Shown piece after piece: positions 3,177-47,534 of a stretch of DNA of 64,000 nt. The DNA comes from Aequorivita echinoideorum. Its GTDB lineage: Bacteria > Bacteroidota > Bacteroidia > Flavobacteriales > Flavobacteriaceae. The position numbers and the translations under genes were made by a program. The DNA lies in contig NZ_JAHCTB010000004.1 in the NCBI RefSeq assembly GCF_018476645.1, positions 62,001-126,000 of the forward strand, in the 5' to 3' direction. The notes below the pieces were generated by a model. It made no database searches, was not told the origin of the DNA, and worked only from the letters and a program-made list of their open reading frames with translations. Each line of letters begins with the position of its first letter. The first letter of the stretch is position 1.

Positions 3177-3932
3177 ATGAATGTAATAATTATTGAAGAC
3201 GAAAAACCATCTGCTCGACATTTGCAACGAATGCTTGAAAAACTTGATGTTGCCGTTAACCAAATGCTTCACAGCGTTGAGGAATCCGTGCAATGGTTTA
3301 CAGAAAACGCGCACCCAGATTTAATTTTTCTGGATATTCAATTGAGTGACGGGTTATCCTTTGAAATTTTTGAAAAAGTATCTATTAAAAGTCCCATAAT
3401 TTTCACAACAGCATTTGATGAATATGCGCTGCAGGCGTTTAAATTGAATAGTATTGATTATTTGCTGAAACCAATTGATGAGGATGAATTAACTGCCGCC
3501 GTAAAAAAATATCGAAGTCTAAAACCGCAGGCACAAGCTGTACAATTCAATTTTGAGGATATCAAAAAATTACTCGTCAATCCGGTGGAACGCGAGTATA
3601 AAAAACGATTTACAACAAAAATAGGCCAGCACATAAAAATAATCTCAGCAGATGAAATTGAATGTTTTTATTCTGAAAATAAAGGAACCTACGCCCACAC
3701 TGTCGATGGCCGTGATTATCTGCTCGAAACAACCTTGGAACAGCTGGAAACCGAACTTTCTCCGGAAAAGTTTTTCAGGATTAGCCGTAAATTCTTTATA
3801 AATATTGATGCCATAAAGGATATTATTTCCTACACCAATTCCCGACTTCAGTTGAAACTCAATAGTTTTAGTGGGCAGGAAGTTATCGTGGCGCGTGAAA
3901 AAGTGAAGGATTTTAAACTTTGGCTAGAGTAA
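3177..3932 (+). CDS. LytTR-family response regulator
   Basis: A 251-residue response regulator. The receiver domain spans residues 1-~115, with acidic pocket EDE (7-9), phospho-acceptor D53 in LIFLDIQLSDG, Thr in FTTAFDEYAL and Lys in YLLKPIDED. The LytTR DNA-binding domain covers ~140-250 (FTTKIGQHIKIISADEIECFYSENKGTYAHT ... FFRISRKFFINIDAI). It is the cognate regulator of the LytS-type kinase at 1073, in the same orientation and separated only by the two 2TM genes. LytTR regulators bind paired short direct repeats; I did not identify such sites here. Confidence 0.92.
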   Translation: MNVIIIEDEKPSARHLQRMLEKLDVAVNQMLHSVEESVQWFTENAHPDLIFLDIQLSDGLSFEIFEKVSIKSPIIFTTAFDEYALQAFKLNSIDYLLKPIDEDELTAAVKKYRSLKPQAQAVQFNFEDIKKLLVNPVEREYKKRFTTKIGQHIKIISADEIECFYSENKGTYAHTVDGRDYLLETTLEQLETELSPEKFFRISRKFFINIDAIKDIISYTNSRLQLKLNSFSGQEVIVAREKVKDFKLWLE

Positions 3933-40972: not shown

Positions 40973-41856
40973 TGGATACATCCATTTGTATAGTTTCAAA
41001 AAACAGAAAGGACGATTTAGATAAAACTTTATCTATTTTAAAAGATATAACAGATATTTCAGAAATACTTGTGTTTTTGGATGGTTGTACGGATAATTCA
41101 TCATCCTTAAAAATAAAATATCCTCAGGTCAAATGGTATGGTTCTGAAAAAAGTATTGGTGCATCCCCGGCAAGAAAACATATTTATGCGGAAGCCACAG
41201 GTGAATTACTTTTCGGGTTTGATGATGATGCACATCCTCTCAATAATAATTTTGTAGAACTGGCCAAAAGAATATTTTCGGAACGATCTTCTGTTGCAGT
41301 ACTAGCTTTTGAGGAGATAAAAGGAATTTTTGAAAATGACGCGCTTGCACTGGAAAAACATAGTGCCAATGAGGAATTTTTGTGCAATTCATTTGTGGGC
41401 TGTGGGTTTGTCATAAGAAAAGATGCGTACCACAAAACCGGGGGATTTCCCGACTGGATGGATATCTACGGCGAGGAAGGTGCTGTCTCTATAGAATTAT
41501 TGGATTCTGGTTACGATATTTTATATACTTCCCAAATTAGTGTAAATCATAGAGTGGATAGAAGTATAAGAAAATCCAATAGAATGAATGTATTTCGTTT
41601 TGAAAGACAATTATGTAATATGGGGATGTATTTTATTATATATTATCCCATCACACTCCTTCCTAAAAAATTACTTAAGTTATTCTTCCACAATTTTTTC
41701 AAATATGGTATCATTGATAGTTACTTTTTTTGGGCTTATCTAAAAGGGACATTTACGTTGTTGTCAAAATTGCCCTTGGCAATAAAGCATAGGAAAAAAG
41801 TTTCTAGCAAAACGATAGCGAAAATCAATAAATTGCCACACCCCAAATATGGTTAA
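40972..41856 (+). CDS. Glycosyltransferase family 2
   Basis: A 294-residue GT-A enzyme with GTG start that shares its G with the previous TAG. SICIVSKNRKDDLDKTLSILKDITDISEILVFLDGCTDNSS and ATGELLFGFDDDAHPLNNNF (FDDDA metal motif) identify it; CGFVIRKDAYHKTGGFPDWMDIYGEEGAVSIELLDSGYDILYTSQISVNHRVDRSIRKSN is the catalytic part (YGEE). It overlaps neuA by 8 bases, so the two are probably translated together. Confidence 0.88.
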   Translation: MDTSICIVSKNRKDDLDKTLSILKDITDISEILVFLDGCTDNSSSLKIKYPQVKWYGSEKSIGASPARKHIYAEATGELLFGFDDDAHPLNNNFVELAKRIFSERSSVAVLAFEEIKGIFENDALALEKHSANEEFLCNSFVGCGFVIRKDAYHKTGGFPDWMDIYGEEGAVSIELLDSGYDILYTSQISVNHRVDRSIRKSNRMNVFRFERQLCNMGMYFIIYYPITLLPKKLLKLFFHNFFKYGIIDSYFFWAYLKGTFTLLSKLPLAIKHRKKVSSKTIAKINKLPHPKYG

Positions 41857-42535
41857 CAAGAATAAGAAATCCATCGCCATAATCCCTGCCCGTGGAGGCT
41901 CCAAACGCTTACCGAAAAAAAATATTCGCGAGCTGGGCGGTAAGCCATTGATTGCTTACAGTATTGAATATGCTTTGGAAAACCAAGACATCATAGATCA
42001 AGTATATGTATCAACGGATGATCCCGACATAAAAAATATAGCGCTTCAATATGGGGCAACGGTTGTGGATCGTCCCCAGGCATTGAGCGGTGATCTTGAA
42101 CCCACAGTTACCGCGCTGAAGCACGTATTGCAATCCATCGATGGGAAAGTGGAAAATGTAATTCTTCTGCAACCTACAAACCCACTTCGCCCACAAAATT
42201 TACTGAAGGATTGTTTTTCAGATTTTGAAAATGGAAACTATGAAAGCGCAATGGCCGTAAGCAGAAACCATCAAAAATTTGGTAAGATTGTCAATGGAAA
42301 TTTTGAACCGTTCAATTACAGTTTTGGGCAGCGAAGCCAGGATCTGGAGCCGCTTTATTTCGAAAACGGACTTTTATATATTGCTAAAGCTGAATTGATA
42401 TTAAATGAAAAATTAGTGGGGGATAAAAATTTACCCTTTATAATAAATCATCCGTTTGCGCACATAGATATTGATACGGAAGAAGATTTAATGCAAGCGG
42501 AGTTTTTTCATTCCAGATATTTTAAAAAATATTAG
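41849..42535 (+). CDS. neuA: CMP-N-acetylneuraminic acid synthetase
   Basis: A 228-residue cytidylyltransferase that activates a nonulosonic acid with CTP. IAIIPARGGSKRLPKKNIRELGGKPLIAYSIEYAL is the CTP-binding signature, followed by VYVSTDDPDIKNIALQYGATVVDRP, VILLQPTNPLRPQNLL and HPFAHIDIDTEEDLMQAE (metal-binding DIDTEEDL). NeuC downstream favours N-acetylneuraminate rather than legionaminate or pseudaminate. Unusually, it is separated from neuB by a 2.7-kb repeat island. Confidence 0.93.
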   Translation: MVNKNKKSIAIIPARGGSKRLPKKNIRELGGKPLIAYSIEYALENQDIIDQVYVSTDDPDIKNIALQYGATVVDRPQALSGDLEPTVTALKHVLQSIDGKVENVILLQPTNPLRPQNLLKDCFSDFENGNYESAMAVSRNHQKFGKIVNGNFEPFNYSFGQRSQDLEPLYFENGLLYIAKAELILNEKLVGDKNLPFIINHPFAHIDIDTEEDLMQAEFFHSRYFKKY

Positions 42536-42925
42536 GCCGCGTGGTTTTTTAAAGAAAGCTCAATGTCAGGCCGCGTATTTTTAAAAAAGCGAAGCGGTTT
42601 TTTAAAAATTGTATCGAGACCCTTAGTTGGTAGCTACGCTGATCAAAAGCCAAACTCCCGATCCGTTCTCGATACTTTTTTTTTCGCATTCGCTTAAAAA
42701 AATCACTCGAACTGACAGTGGTTGTTTTAACAAAAATGTCTGATTTTGTGATTTTTAACAAGAAAACGCAATGGCTGATCGACTGTCCCGAACTTGTTAC
42801 GGGATGTATCGAGACCGGGTTCTTGGTTTTTATCTTGATACCGTTGGGGCAGGCTTCTCGATATGCCCCCGAACCGCTATCTCCATTTCGGTGGCTACTC
42901 GAACTGACAGTTTTTTAAATCGCAA

Positions 42926-42959
42926 TGTCAGGTCGAGTAATTTTTAAAAAAGAAGTTTA
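42926..42959. repeat. Truncated type A unit
   Basis: This piece starts like an A unit (TGTCAGGTCGAGTAATTTTT) but ends after about 34 bases, where a complete A unit begins at 42961. It may mark a deletion or a unit inserted into another unit. Confidence 0.7.
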
Positions 42960-43154
42960 ATGTCAGGTCGAGTGATTTTTAAAAAAGCGAAGCGGCTTTT
43001 TAAAAATTGTATCGAGACCCTTAGTTGGTAGCTACGCTGATCAAAAGACAAACTCCCGATCCGTTCTCGATACTATTTTTTTTTCGCATTCGCTTAAAAA
43101 ATCACTCGAATTGACAGTTGTTGTTTGAAACGTAACGTCAGTTCGAGCCCCTTA

Positions 43155-43445
43155 TTATTTAAATTTTTTCTTAGCCAGATTGGGCAACTTTTCAAACTCC
43201 CCGTTTATCAATGCTTTCTTTTTCGCCTGTGACCATTTTTTAATTTGTTTTTCAGTAGTAATCGCAATGCTTACTTCAGAAAATGTGCAGTAATACGCAA
43301 GCTCCACCGGCAACCTTGTGGAGGTGTAACTGTTTAGATATTTTTTATGCTGATGGTCCTCCAACCGCTGGGTTAAATTTGAGGTAACGCCGATGTAATA
43401 GGTTTTATCTGAACATAATAGTATGTAAACGTAATAGGTTTTCAT
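43155..43445 (-). CDS. GIY-YIG endonuclease domain protein, repeat-associated
   Basis: A 96-residue single-domain GIY-YIG protein (UPF0213/YhbQ-like size). YYVYILLCSDKTYYIGVTSNLTQRLEDH carries Y5, the YIG-equivalent Y17-I18-G19, catalytic R27 and H31; E65 in ITTEKQIKKW is the metal-binding Glu. All key residues are present, so it should be an active nuclease. It is the only gene in the palindrome island. Its stop is eight bases from a repeat terminus (GTCAGTTCGAG, 43137-43147), and A units flank both sides. I infer involvement in repeat maintenance or spread; a general DNA-repair role is the alternative. Confidence 0.88.
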   Translation of the reverse strand: MKTYYVYILLCSDKTYYIGVTSNLTQRLEDHQHKKYLNSYTSTRLPVELAYYCTFSEVSIAITTEKQIKKWSQAKKKALINGEFEKLPNLAKKKFK

Positions 43446-45233
43446 AGCAGAAAATTATTAAAAAGAATTTAGATTTTGAAAGTAAATTGTTACTTATAAT
43501 CTTTTGGAATCGCAATGTCAGGTCGAGTGATTTTTAAAAAAGCGGAGCGGCTTTTTAAAAATTGTATCGAGACCATTGGTTAGTAGCTACTCCGATAACA
43601 AAACCTAACTCCCGATCCGTTCTCGATACTATTTTTTTTCGCATTCGCTCAAAAAATCACTCGAACTGACAGTTTTTTAAATCGCAATGTCAGGTCGAGT
43701 GATTTTTAAAAATGCGAAGCGGCTTTTTAAAATTGTATCGAGACCATTAGTTGGTAGCTACGCTGATCAAAAGACAAACTCCCGATCCGTTCTCAATACT
43801 ATTTTTTTCGCATTCGCTTAAAAAATCACTCGAACTGACAGTTTTTTAAATCGCAATGTCAGGTCGAGTGATTTTTAAAAAAGCGGAGCGATTTTTTAAA
43901 AATTGTATCGAGACCATTGGTTAGTAGCTACTCCGATAACAAAACCTAACTCCCGATCCGTTCTCGATACTATTTTTTTTCGCATTCGCTTAAAAAAATC
44001 ACTCGAACTGACAGTGGTTGTTTTAATAAAAATGTCTGATTTTGTGGTTTTTAAAAAGAAAACGCGATGGCAGGTCGACTGTCCCGAACTTGTTTCGGGA
44101 TGTATCGAGACCGGGTTTTTAGTTCTTATTTTGATACCGTTGGGGCAGGCTTCTCGATATGCCCCCAAACCACTATCTCCATTTCGGTGGCTACTCGAAG
44201 TGACAGTTTTTTAAATCGCAATGTCAGGTCGAGTAATTTTTAAAAAAGCGGAGCGGTTTTTTAAAAATTGTATCGAGACCCTTAGTTGGTAGCTACGCTG
44301 ATCACAAGCCAAACTCCCGATCCGTTCTCGATACTATTTTTTTTTCGCATTCGCTTAAAAAAATCACTCGAACTGACAGTTTTTTAAATCGCAATGTCAG
44401 GTCGAGTGATTTTTAAAAAAGCGAAGCGGTTTTTTAAAAATTGTATCGAGACCCTTAGTTGGTAGCTACGCTGATCAAAAGACAAACTCCCGATCCGTTC
44501 TCGATACTATTTTTTTTTCGCATTCGCTTAAAAAATCACTCGAATTGACAGTGGTTGTTTTAACAAAAATGTCTGGTATTGTGGTTTTTTAACAAGAAAA
44601 CGCAATGGCTGATCGACTGTCCCGAACTTGTTTCGGTATGTATCGAGATCGGGTTTTTAGTTCTTATCTTGCTACCGTTGGGACAGGCTTCTCGATATGC
44701 CCCCAAACCGCTATCTCCATTTCGGTGGCTACTCGAACTGACAGTTATTTAAATCGCAATGTCAGGTCGAGTGATTTTTAAAAAAGCGAAGCGGTTTTTT
44801 AAAATTTGTATCGAGACCATTGGTTAGTAGCTACTCCGATAACAAAACCTAACTCCCGATCCGTTCTCGATACTATTTTTTTCGCATTCGCTTAAAAAAT
44901 CACTCGAACTGACAGTGGTTGTTTTAATAAAAATTTCTGGTATTGTGGTTTTTTAAATGAAAACGCAATGGCTGATCGACTGTCCCGAACTTGTTTCGGG
45001 ATGTATCGAGACCGGGTTCTTGGTTTTTATCTTGATACCGTTGGGGCAGGCTTCTCGATATGCCCCCGAACTGCTATCTTCATTTCGGTTACTACTTGAA
45101 GTGACAGCATTGTATTTCCCATTGTTAGATGCTTACTCAAATACTGAACAATTGGTGTAAGTGTATCGACACCTTTTAAACTTGCCAAACATCAAATTAT
45201 TAAATAACTTGGCTTTCAAAATAAAAAATCAAT

Positions 45234-46283
45234 TTGGCAGCAGAATTTAGTATAGCCCATAGGAAAATAGGACCAGAGCATCCGCCTTTGGTAATTGCCG
45301 AAATCGGCATTAACCACGAGGGCTCCCTTGCCGTGGCAAAACAAATGGTCGATGCTGCGAAAAGGGCTGGGGTGGAGCTTATTAAACATCAAACCCACAT
45401 AGTGGAAGATGAAATGAGCCAAGAAGCCAAAAAGGTAATTCCCGGCAACGCAAAAGAATCCATTTACGAAATTATGAAACGTTGCGCCCTTTCCGAAGAG
45501 GACGAATGGGCGCTAAAAAAATATGTGGAAGATGCGGGAATGATTTTTATTAGCACCCCATTTTCAAGAGCTGCCGCCAATAGATTGGAAATGTTTGATG
45601 TTCCCGCATACAAGATTGGAAGCGGGGAATGCAATAATTATCCACTTTTGGAACACATTGCCTCGTTTGGAAAACCCATCATTATGAGTACGGGGATGAA
45701 TTCAATTGAAAGCATTTCAAAAGCGGTTGGGATTTTTGATAAAAAAAATGTTCCCCTTGCCTTATTGCACACCACCAACCTGTATCCCACACCAATCCAT
45801 TTGGTACGATATGGCGCGATGATGGAAATGCACCAATCCTTTCCTAAACTTGTATTTGGATTGAGCGACCACACCCTCAACAATAACGCTTGCTTGGGAG
45901 CCGTAGCTTTGGGTGCTTCTATTCTGGAACGTCATTTTACCGACCATAAGCACCGCACCGGGCCGGATATTGTTTGCAGTATGGATGAAAAGGAATGTGA
46001 ACAATTAATTGTAGGTTCCAAAGAGATTTGGCAAATGCGCGGTGGTACTAAAAAAGCAGCTTCCGAAGAAAAAGTAACCATCGATTTTGCCTTTGCAACA
46101 GTATGCACCATTGCACCCATTAAAAAAGGGGAAGTTTTTACGAAAGAAAATATCTGGGTGAAACGCCCCGGAACAGGAGAAATATTAGCAGAGGATTTTA
46201 ATTCGATATTGGGTGAAAAGGCTTCAGAAGATATAGCTATAGATGTACAATTGCGAAAAAGTGATGTTGATAATAGACAATAG
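45234..46283 (+). CDS. neuB: N-acetylneuraminate synthase
   Basis: A 349-residue enzyme that condenses ManNAc with phosphoenolpyruvate to Neu5Ac. The TIM barrel has [103 protein letters not shown] and GLSDHTLNN ... [16 protein letters not shown]. The C-terminal SAF (antifreeze-like) domain is [28 protein letters not shown]. The start is TTG. The last codons and the TAG stop lie within heptamer tract 4 (NRQ-stop), so the tract has replaced the native 3' end. Confidence 0.93.
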
Positions 46284-46415: not shown

Positions 46416-47534
46416 ATGAAAAAAATAGTATTCCTTACCGGTACGCGAGCTGATTTTGGTAAAATTAAATCGCTCATACGTATCTTGGAATCCCACGCGC
46501 AGTTTGAGCCGTATGTTTTTGTAACCGGAATGCATCTTTTGGAGGAATATGGCTATACCGTAATTGAAGTGGAACGTTGTGGCTTCAAGAATATCCATAC
46601 CTTCAAAAATCATACGGATGAATCCACCATGGAACTTACGCTCGCCAAAACGATTGAGGGTTTTTCCGATTTCGTAAAGAAAATTGAACCCGATTTAATT
46701 GTAGTCCACGGCGATAGAATAGAAACACTGGCGGGCGCGCTTGTCGGCTCACTGAATAATATTTTGGTCGCACATATTGAAGGCGGCGAAATTTCCGGCA
46801 CTATAGACGAATTGATTAGGCACGCCACCAGCAAAATGAGTCACGTTCATTTTGTTGCAAATGATTTGGCGAAAAAAAGGCTCATACAAATGGGAGAGGT
46901 AAAGGATGCCATTTTCACAATCGGCTCTCCCGATATTGATTCTATGTTTTCTGAAAATCTTCCTACGCTGGAAACCGCAAAAAAATACTATGAAATTGAA
47001 TTTCAGCAATACGCCATTGCTATTTTTCATCCCATAACCACAGAAATTTCCCAAATTGAAAAATACATCCAAGCCTTTACGCAAGCGCTTGTAGATAGTG
47101 ATAAAAAGTATGTGGTGATCTATCCCAATAATGATCTGGGAAGTAAAATAATACTCAATAATTTTAAAACTTTAGCATCCAATACCCATTTCAGAATTAT
47201 ACCTTCCGTGCGCTTTGAGTATTTTTTGGTACTCTTGAAAAATGCTGAATTCATTATCGGAAATTCCAGCGCCGGAATTCGCGAGGCTCCCTATTATGGC
47301 GTACCAACTATAAATATTGGCACAAGGCAGGAAAATCGTGCCTTGCACAGCCAGATTATGAATGTGGGATATGCTTATGATGAAATTCTTGATGCAATAA
47401 ATGTGGAGCACCAAAAATTTCCACCAGACATTGAAAGTTTTGGGATTGGAAATAGCGATAAACTTTTTTTACAAACGCTCTTGCGCAATGATTTTTGGGA
47501 AATCAACCATCAAAAGCAATTCGTGACACTATGA
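46416..47534 (+). CDS. neuC: UDP-N-acetylglucosamine 2-epimerase (hydrolysing)
   Basis: A 372-residue GT-B-fold enzyme that converts UDP-GlcNAc to ManNAc and UDP, the first step of bacterial sialic acid synthesis. KKIVFLTGTRADFGKIKSLIRIL, VVHGDRIETLAGALVGSLNNILVAHIEGGEISGTIDELIRHATSKMSHVHFVAND, IFHPITTE, and FIIGNSSAGIREAPYYGVPTINIGTRQENR are diagnostic; TGTRADFGK distinguishes hydrolysing NeuC/LegG from WecB. No legB/legC or pseB/pseC is present, so Neu5Ac is the likely product. The stop overlaps the next ATG (ATGA). Confidence 0.92.
   Translation: MKKIVFLTGTRADFGKIKSLIRILESHAQFEPYVFVTGMHLLEEYGYTVIEVERCGFKNIHTFKNHTDESTMELTLAKTIEGFSDFVKKIEPDLIVVHGDRIETLAGALVGSLNNILVAHIEGGEISGTIDELIRHATSKMSHVHFVANDLAKKRLIQMGEVKDAIFTIGSPDIDSMFSENLPTLETAKKYYEIEFQQYAIAIFHPITTEISQIEKYIQAFTQALVDSDKKYVVIYPNNDLGSKIILNNFKTLASNTHFRIIPSVRFEYFLVLLKNAEFIIGNSSAGIREAPYYGVPTINIGTRQENRALHSQIMNVGYAYDEILDAINVEHQKFPPDIESFGIGNSDKLFLQTLLRNDFWEINHQKQFVTL

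Follow-up and report, generated by a model that had tools for sequence, protein, structure and literature searches.

Genes for a small stand-alone GIY-YIG nuclease and short hairpin-forming DNA arms co-occur across the Flavobacteriaceae, and we describe here one such pairing in a repeat island of Aequorivita echinoideorum. We are highly confident that nuclease and repeats form one functional system. Judged from sequence comparison, the recurrence of the enzyme-repeat pairing in related marine bacteria suggests that the enzyme works on the repeats and probably spreads them. Our preferred reading, which we consider rather more probable than its competitors taken together, sees in the island a colony of hairpin elements on the chromosome, accompanied by their own stand-alone GIY-YIG nuclease; this would be a REP/RAYT-like arrangement in which that enzyme stands in place of an HUH transposase.

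Results

A repeat island separates neuA from neuB

The window, by which we mean the whole stretch of 64,000 nucleotides analysed, contains a repeat island of 2.5 kb at 42564..45106 (no strand assigned), flanked by genes like neuA (41849-42535) and neuB (45234-46283). Besides a single gene, the island comprises eight A units, four B units and a lone terminus. Our repeat search recovered the eight A and four B fold-back units described in an earlier note on this DNA, as two repeat families, D1 (A, eight copies, 171 nt including the spacer) and D2 (B, four copies). All units were assigned to the plus strand. The A units lie at 42564..42717, 42961..43116, 43516..43671 (immediately upstream of the gene), 43688..43840, 43857..44013, 44222..44378, 44395..44550 and 44760..44914, and the B units, whose ends are designed as in A around different inner hairpins, lie at 42772..42909, 44068..44205, 44606..44743 and 44969..45106. 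The neuA- and neuB-like genes, together with what is presumably a neuC-like gene at 46416-47534, belong to a nonulosonic (sialic/legionaminic) acid pathway and lie amid glycosyltransferase-like genes.

The earlier note had placed one terminal motif at every unit end, which is too strict, as several termini deviate or are degenerate. The first A unit has a degenerate left end, TGTCAGGCCGCG, and two A units end on the right in TGTCAATTCGAG; the left ends of the B units, including the first, are degenerate (for example TGGCTGATCGAC), and the last B unit is degenerate at its right end too. A lone left terminus, TGTCAGGTCGAGT, stands at 42926..42938 on the plus strand. A further unit terminus, GTCAGTTCGAG (43137..43147, no strand assigned), lies 7 bases past the stop codon of the gene, and not 8 as first counted. 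The strict terminus TGTCAGKTCGAGT has 19 copies in the 2.93-Mb genome, 16 of them in the island, with 0 copies of the reversed control, and 21 of the 22 window matches to TGTCANNTCGAG, with one mismatch allowed, fall inside the island. Counted as strict arms, 17 of 20 in this genome are at the island and 3 are elsewhere; the arms are more dispersed in genomes G159 and G047.

An A unit can form one long hairpin, or two arms that are each able to fold alone. The seventh A unit, the only one that we folded whole as DNA, folds over its full length, as the earlier note had claimed for A units, at -35 kcal/mol (z -6.4), and none of 200 shuffled sequences folded equally well.

Elsewhere in the same genome, on contig C21, locus L138 carries at 3237-3880 a tandem array of about 181 bp that has left arms only and lies in a spacer rich in AACCAACAACC-like sequence.

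The island gene encodes a stand-alone GIY-YIG nuclease

The single gene of the island (43155..43445, minus strand) encodes a 96-residue, UPF0213-like GIY-YIG nuclease according to Pfam, alignment and predicted structure. Pfam bears out its earlier assignment as a GIY-YIG protein (E 1.3e-14); GIY-YIG and T5orf172 were the only Pfam domains matched, and no HUH/Y1 domain was found among them. In an alignment of 61 proteins, that of the window and those of 60 of the 80 loci described below, residues Y7, Y17, R27 and E65 are invariant. Three of the four catalytic residues proposed earlier (Y17, R27 and E65) are thereby retained, but in the first motif the tyrosine that never varies is Y7 and not Y5. 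The island protein thus consists of a stand-alone GIY-YIG domain with its catalytic residues. Among named organisms, those closest by this gene are Aequorivita (Flavobacteriaceae).

AlphaFold2 modelled the protein as a confident small fold (pLDDT 91). The best Foldseek matches of this model were 1zg2 (E 4.7e-5) and 1ywl (2.7e-3), followed by Slx1 chains (5.9e-3 and weaker), and sequence searches matched the UPF0213 proteins BH0048 (1zg2, E 9.5e-8) and EF2693 (1ywl, E 3.2e-5). The entry 1zg2 is an NMR structure, and by the titles of its structure entries Slx1 is a branched-DNA nuclease. The likeness to BH0048, EF2693 and Slx1 concerns the protein alone; in the case of Slx1, the modelled fold fits a GIY-YIG protein that might act on hairpins or forks. 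The gene is under purifying selection, with dN/dS of 0.05-0.13 in 8 of 12 computed pairs (dS was saturated in two of the others and dN was zero in two). A search of 72,556 plasmid records at 1e-5 returned a single record with a homologue, and spread by plasmids was discarded as an explanation.

Gene and repeats are associated across the family

We examined the best 80 of 408 confirmed matches to the gene in public genomes, a set whose lineages are not independent. Within 500 bp of the gene, 66 of these 80 flavobacterial loci have the motif TGTCA[GC]NTCGAG, 76 have a second form, GTCAGNTCGAG, and all 80 have GTCANNTCGAG when one mismatch is allowed. Matches to TGTCA[GC]NTCGAG number 314 (3.1/kb) within 500 bp of the gene, against 0-0.08/kb in the 500-bp bins between 2 and 10 kb, and the one-mismatch motif has a density of 0.13/kb beyond 2 kb. 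The gene is enclosed by two facing (inverted) arms in 49 of the 80 loci and stands between units in 14; both neighbouring arms have one and the same orientation in 9 and 4 loci, and one neighbour is absent in 4. The window gene has its downstream terminus and lacks an upstream arm of its own, and therefore belongs to a minority arrangement.

The association extends to whole genomes. We assigned to clade A those proteins that match the window protein with at least 97 bits, a limit chosen after the scores were known. Of 149 genomes of the family, 22 have a clade-A gene and 127 lack one; one or more strict arms occur in 18 of the former and 28 of the latter (Fisher p 1.2e-7), and three or more in 16 and 12, respectively. 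At the genus level the median motif count is 20 in the 8 genomes with the gene and 6.5 in the 20 without (p 0.002), with high counts in two congeners that lack it, G002 (62) and G025 (26). The gene therefore has a cognate multi-copy genomic sequence in the sense of an association of gene and arms.

Units consist of two inverted arms that obey a pairing rule

Read from the flanks of the clade loci, a unit consists of two inverted arms, with either a short loop or the GIY-YIG gene between them; loci L103 and L062 have both forms side by side. In gene orientation the left arm reads TGTCA-NN-TCGAG-TG-(inner palindrome)-GTATCGAGA-N'N', the right arm has this layout inverted, and the arm stretch is mostly 43-58 nt long.

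Of 504 arms, 473 have an inner N'N' complementary to the outer NN, whereas shuffling the inner pairs within each locus gave 265 on average and never more than 305 over 2000 trials. The rule is obeyed by 383 of 411 distinct arm sequences and by 13 of the 17 arms in the window. The pairs used (GT/AC, CT/AG, GG/CC and CA/TG) vary, so no single sequence lies behind the rule, and in 67 of 71 loci the arms of one orientation have a different majority NN from those of the other. Inner stems measure 5-8 bp in 289 of the 411 distinct arms, and 2-3 bp in 320 of 411 after shuffling. Mismatches at NN show no RNA-like wobble bias (GT 4, TG 1, AC 4, CA 2). When six single-arm stretches were folded, two of them incomplete at their coordinates, z was -5.8 and -2.5 in two cases and between -0.6 and 0.2, which is unremarkable, in four. 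The structure of the arms accordingly rests on the complementarity counts and not on folding energy, and these counts support the view that the arms are paired structures.

Other GIY-YIG genes lie beside repeats of the same design

At several loci, though with no clear case in L126 and L128, paralogues about 40-50% identical are set among different repeats built to the same design, and the rule therefore generalises to GTCA-N4-GAG-(inner hairpin)-CGA-N4', in which N4' is complementary to N4. We assembled 60 GIY-YIG loci from the first 67 rows listed by a family-wide Pfam search, having dropped seven rows (a tandem copy, two rows with long frames, one whose frame has an internal stop, and three by no firm rule); the set still includes one row with an internal stop, and three of its members (L230, L240 and L249) reach at least 97 bits against the window protein. 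A general arm lies within 500 bp of the gene in 24 of the 60 loci (75 arms, 1.03/kb); beyond 1.5 kb we found 14 arms in 9 loci (0.05/kb), and the reversed control gave 0. General-type arms were absent in the other 36. In a motif-free search, an exact repeat of at least 14 nt was present on both sides within 600 bp of 40 of the 60 genes, compared with 2 of 110 control positions, and 20 genes had no flanking repeat; other types are represented among these flanking repeats, and two of them (L202 and L259) resemble tRNA genes on visual inspection. The enrichment of small GIY-YIG genes beside such repeats, for which the earlier note had proposed a test, is thus strong, both for clade A and for the sampled GIY-YIG genes at large.

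In 14 of the 17 loci that have both orientations, the two ends have no N4 in common. When short-loop arms were sought without a pairing requirement, 51 of 82 were fully complementary, and shuffling within loci gave a mean of 32.6 and a maximum of 43. Proteins whose loci share an arm core are more similar to one another (0.523) than those with different cores (0.386; permutation p 0.0004, 24 loci), as would be expected if every enzyme subgroup had its own substrate.

The evidence linking arms and genes is thinner outside the family. In 23 of 28 new loci from the phylum (five family- or order-level loci were dropped), arms of the GAG...CGA type occurred within the locus of about 2-3 kb in 4, and one of these (L268) looks like chance. 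A looser search for GTCA plus a stem found 10 of the 23 and, having been run without a control, is suggestive only.

Repeats like GTCATRCCGGACYTGATCCGGYA and GTCATTGCGAACGTAGTGAAGCAATC lie beside GIY-YIG genes in L292, L275, L271, L256 and L228, on both sides of the gene in the latter two, and all share a GTCA-stem-loop-stem layout. On contig C1 of the congener G002, GIY-YIG genes themselves stand in tandem, mostly about 350-520 bp apart, with five in succession in one place; these tandem genes are at 1928164-1929970, and also at 1605440-1606022, 1721239-1721802 and 2572172-2574857.

Some repeats occur without the gene

The earlier note would have given up its proposal if such repeats proved to occur in many places without a gene of this clade. 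This holds in part, and the interpretation given in that note is supported in part. Orphan arms do occur: 28 of the 127 family genomes without a clade-A gene have arms, 12 of them three or more, which weakens strict dependence of the repeats on the gene, and 4 of the 22 clade-A genomes contain no strict arm. The congener G002 has three arrays away from the genes compared. Genome G047, related at the level of the order, contains 74 motif copies; no GIY-YIG gene was found at the three repeat places inspected (L120, L121 and L122), and its Pfam matches, two long proteins and a 68-residue open frame, lie elsewhere. Nearly all listed copies in G047 have the terminus TGTCAGTTCGAG at both ends and stand in arrays, some of them near several contig starts. 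Orphan repeats also occur in REP systems, and for this reason orphan arms weaken strict dependence and not the partnership.

Site comparisons point to insertion and movement

Two congeners have a neuA-neuB gap of 136 bp (G022) and about 140 bp (G008), compared with 2698 bp in the window, and of the 7 other loci found, 6 have neuA next to neuB, the seventh having neuB near the start of a contig. The short gap in relatives means that the island is most simply an insertion. The search for empty sites proposed earlier therefore succeeded for the island as a whole, but not for single units, where the automatic search was too noisy because arms match one another. The window shares no flank with the 80 loci in the list of flanks above 800 bp, while several congeners share flanks among themselves and many islands are syntenic within genera; because these alignments covered the gene's orientation alone, any flanks shared the other way round would have escaped notice.

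The islands of L090 ([Muricauda] okinawensis) and L091 (an Allomuricauda metagenome assembly) are 97.1% identical between flanks of 82.4-82.9% identity, and the gene has a dS of 0.019. This difference suggests recent transfer or conversion of the island, or possibly a chimeric assembly. At about 14 points it is the largest among 30 pairs, and it is no isolated outlier, given that L042/L045 and L040/L045 follow closely at about 12-13. Locus L086 has two gene copies 7.4 kb apart that are 99.3% identical and represent a duplicated gene-bearing segment, in which near-identity begins within the upstream arm and ends about 15 bases into the downstream arm; as arms are alike in any case, the breakpoints can be placed only approximately. 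More than one gene copy is also present in L067, L089, L101 and L118. Taken together, these comparisons suggest that the GIY-YIG gene moves.

Discussion

Relation to known systems

The nearest family that we can name is Ssn, reportedly described by the Veyrier laboratory in about 2025 as site-specific single-strand GIY-YIG nucleases that work with the NTS repeats of Neisseria and said to have many homologues, each with its own sequences. Both systems combine a stand-alone GIY-YIG nuclease with a multi-copy genomic repeat, and by analogy the island nuclease likely belongs to this family. Compared with Ssn as so described, the gene here often lies inside two inverted arms, N4 differs between the two ends, and tandem arrays surround the gene. 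We know of no system that matches the enclosure of the gene, the N4 pairing specific to each end, or the arrays.

The earlier note had compared the island to REP/RAYT systems. The likeness to REP/REPIN and RAYT (TnpA_REP) in partnership stands: a small nuclease gene lies amid multi-copy palindromes, and solo arms, inverted pairs and orphan repeats occur in both. The island elements are palindromic and intergenic and also form inverted pairs, as REP/REPIN elements do. RAYT membership, however, falls, for the enzyme is GIY-YIG and not HUH Y1. Other differences from REP systems are the island arm stretch of mostly 43-58 nt and, in this genome, the clustering of most repeats at the gene. RAYT as the partner of these repeats was likewise rejected: the genome (G000) has two Y1 (RAYT-like) transposase matches, at C21:105784-106002 and C20:651528-651866, and no arm motif was found within about 1.5 kb of either.

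In IS200/IS605 elements such as IS608, a 4-nt segment at the foot of the end hairpins pairs with another 4-nt segment and differs between the ends. The island arms also have a 4-nt foot pairing that is unlike at the two ends, but their unit contains no HUH transposase, the gene-bearing form is only about 0.4 kb long, and we found no evidence of precise single-strand excision of the IS200/IS605 type at these units. Lacking the HUH domain, the island belongs to neither REP/RAYT nor IS200/IS605. MITEs offer a further likeness, in that gene-less units have the same ends as the gene-bearing unit; they differ in that here there is no DDE transposase and no target-site duplication was shown. Among the best literature matches, judged by title and the start of the abstract, none reported a link between GIY-YIG proteins and such repeats, and searches with the repeat strings returned no matching title about these repeats.

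A possible mechanism and its rivals

We infer action of the enzyme on the arms from their association and from the matching of subgroups, and spread of the units from anatomy and comparison only. In the mechanism that we propose, the hairpin arms would form while the strand is single-stranded, at a replication fork, in incoming transforming DNA or in a cruciform. The nuclease would bind the arm as single-stranded hairpin DNA and nick it near the GTCA/N4 foot, with N4 serving as an end-specific address. Repair from a neighbouring copy could then lead to tandem multiplication and to conversion and homogenisation of units, and gene-bearing units might occasionally be carried to new sites. We give this hairpin-cleavage mechanism an even chance of being right. 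More tentatively, and with more doubt than belief, one may see here a class of minimal mobile element, some 0.4 kb in total, in which two hairpin arms flank a GIY-YIG gene of less than 300 bp. Its ends would be distinguished by a 4-nt address, base-paired where each hairpin has its foot. Two-arm units without the gene, and solo arms, would be its non-autonomous offspring, and many of the short palindromic repeats of Bacteroidota that start with GTCA would form one superfamily.

The most serious competitor, which we think possible though distinctly less probable than the colony of hairpin elements, is genome dynamics of the Ssn type without transposition, where the nuclease cuts repeats in single-stranded incoming DNA and tunes natural transformation while the repeats multiply mainly by ordinary tandem recombination and transformation. 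The enzyme fold and the multi-copy repeat partner are as reported for Neisseria Ssn, tandem arrays have like spacers within a genome and many islands are syntenic within genera, all of which would agree with it; the enclosure of the gene by inverted arms in 49 of 80 loci, the location of islands at different sites and the duplicated gene-bearing segment of L086 argue against it. A homing-type parasite, that is, a GIY-YIG gene using older repeats, moved by something else, as safe landing sites, could account for the frequent orphan repeats and for the 14 of 80 loci in which the gene lies between units and not inside one. It is improbable in our judgement, given that protein similarity is higher within an arm core than between cores, that the repeats cluster at the gene, with 16 of the 19 strict copies of this genome there, and that the two Y1 genes have no motif nearby.

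The last candidate works at the level of RNA: terminators or processing or attenuator hairpins multiplied by chance beside a nuclease for cell maintenance. Hairpins on both sides of the gene and the intergenic position would suit such elements, yet NN mismatches show no excess of G-T over A-C, arrays of gene-less units exist, and four loci (L062, L103, L048 and L069) gave no Rfam match at gathering scores, and we regard this explanation as very improbable. The Rfam result also led us to discard identity with an RNA family, matches in the window at 41800-46000 being below gathering scores only, and a homing endonuclease in a self-splicing intron, to which the same Rfam results apply. Among these readings we retain the colony of hairpin elements with its own nuclease. 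Counting against it are the orphan arms, the clade-A genomes with no strict arm, the sampled GIY-YIG genes that lack general arms or flanking repeats, the loci, the window's among them, where facing arms do not enclose the gene, the stable position of many islands within a genus, the single plasmid record and the unremarkable folding energy of most single arms.

Implications

Bacterial genomes commonly contain short palindromic repeats, and for many of these no enzyme that makes them is known. The present findings offer a candidate enzyme for several repeat families of the Flavobacteriaceae, together with a family-wide set of natural enzyme and repeat pairs. They also offer a simple structural rule, that N4 pairs with N4' and is usually unlike at the two ends, which is testable in one gel. 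If cleavage follows N4, these proteins would be sequence-addressed single-strand nucleases of about 100 residues.
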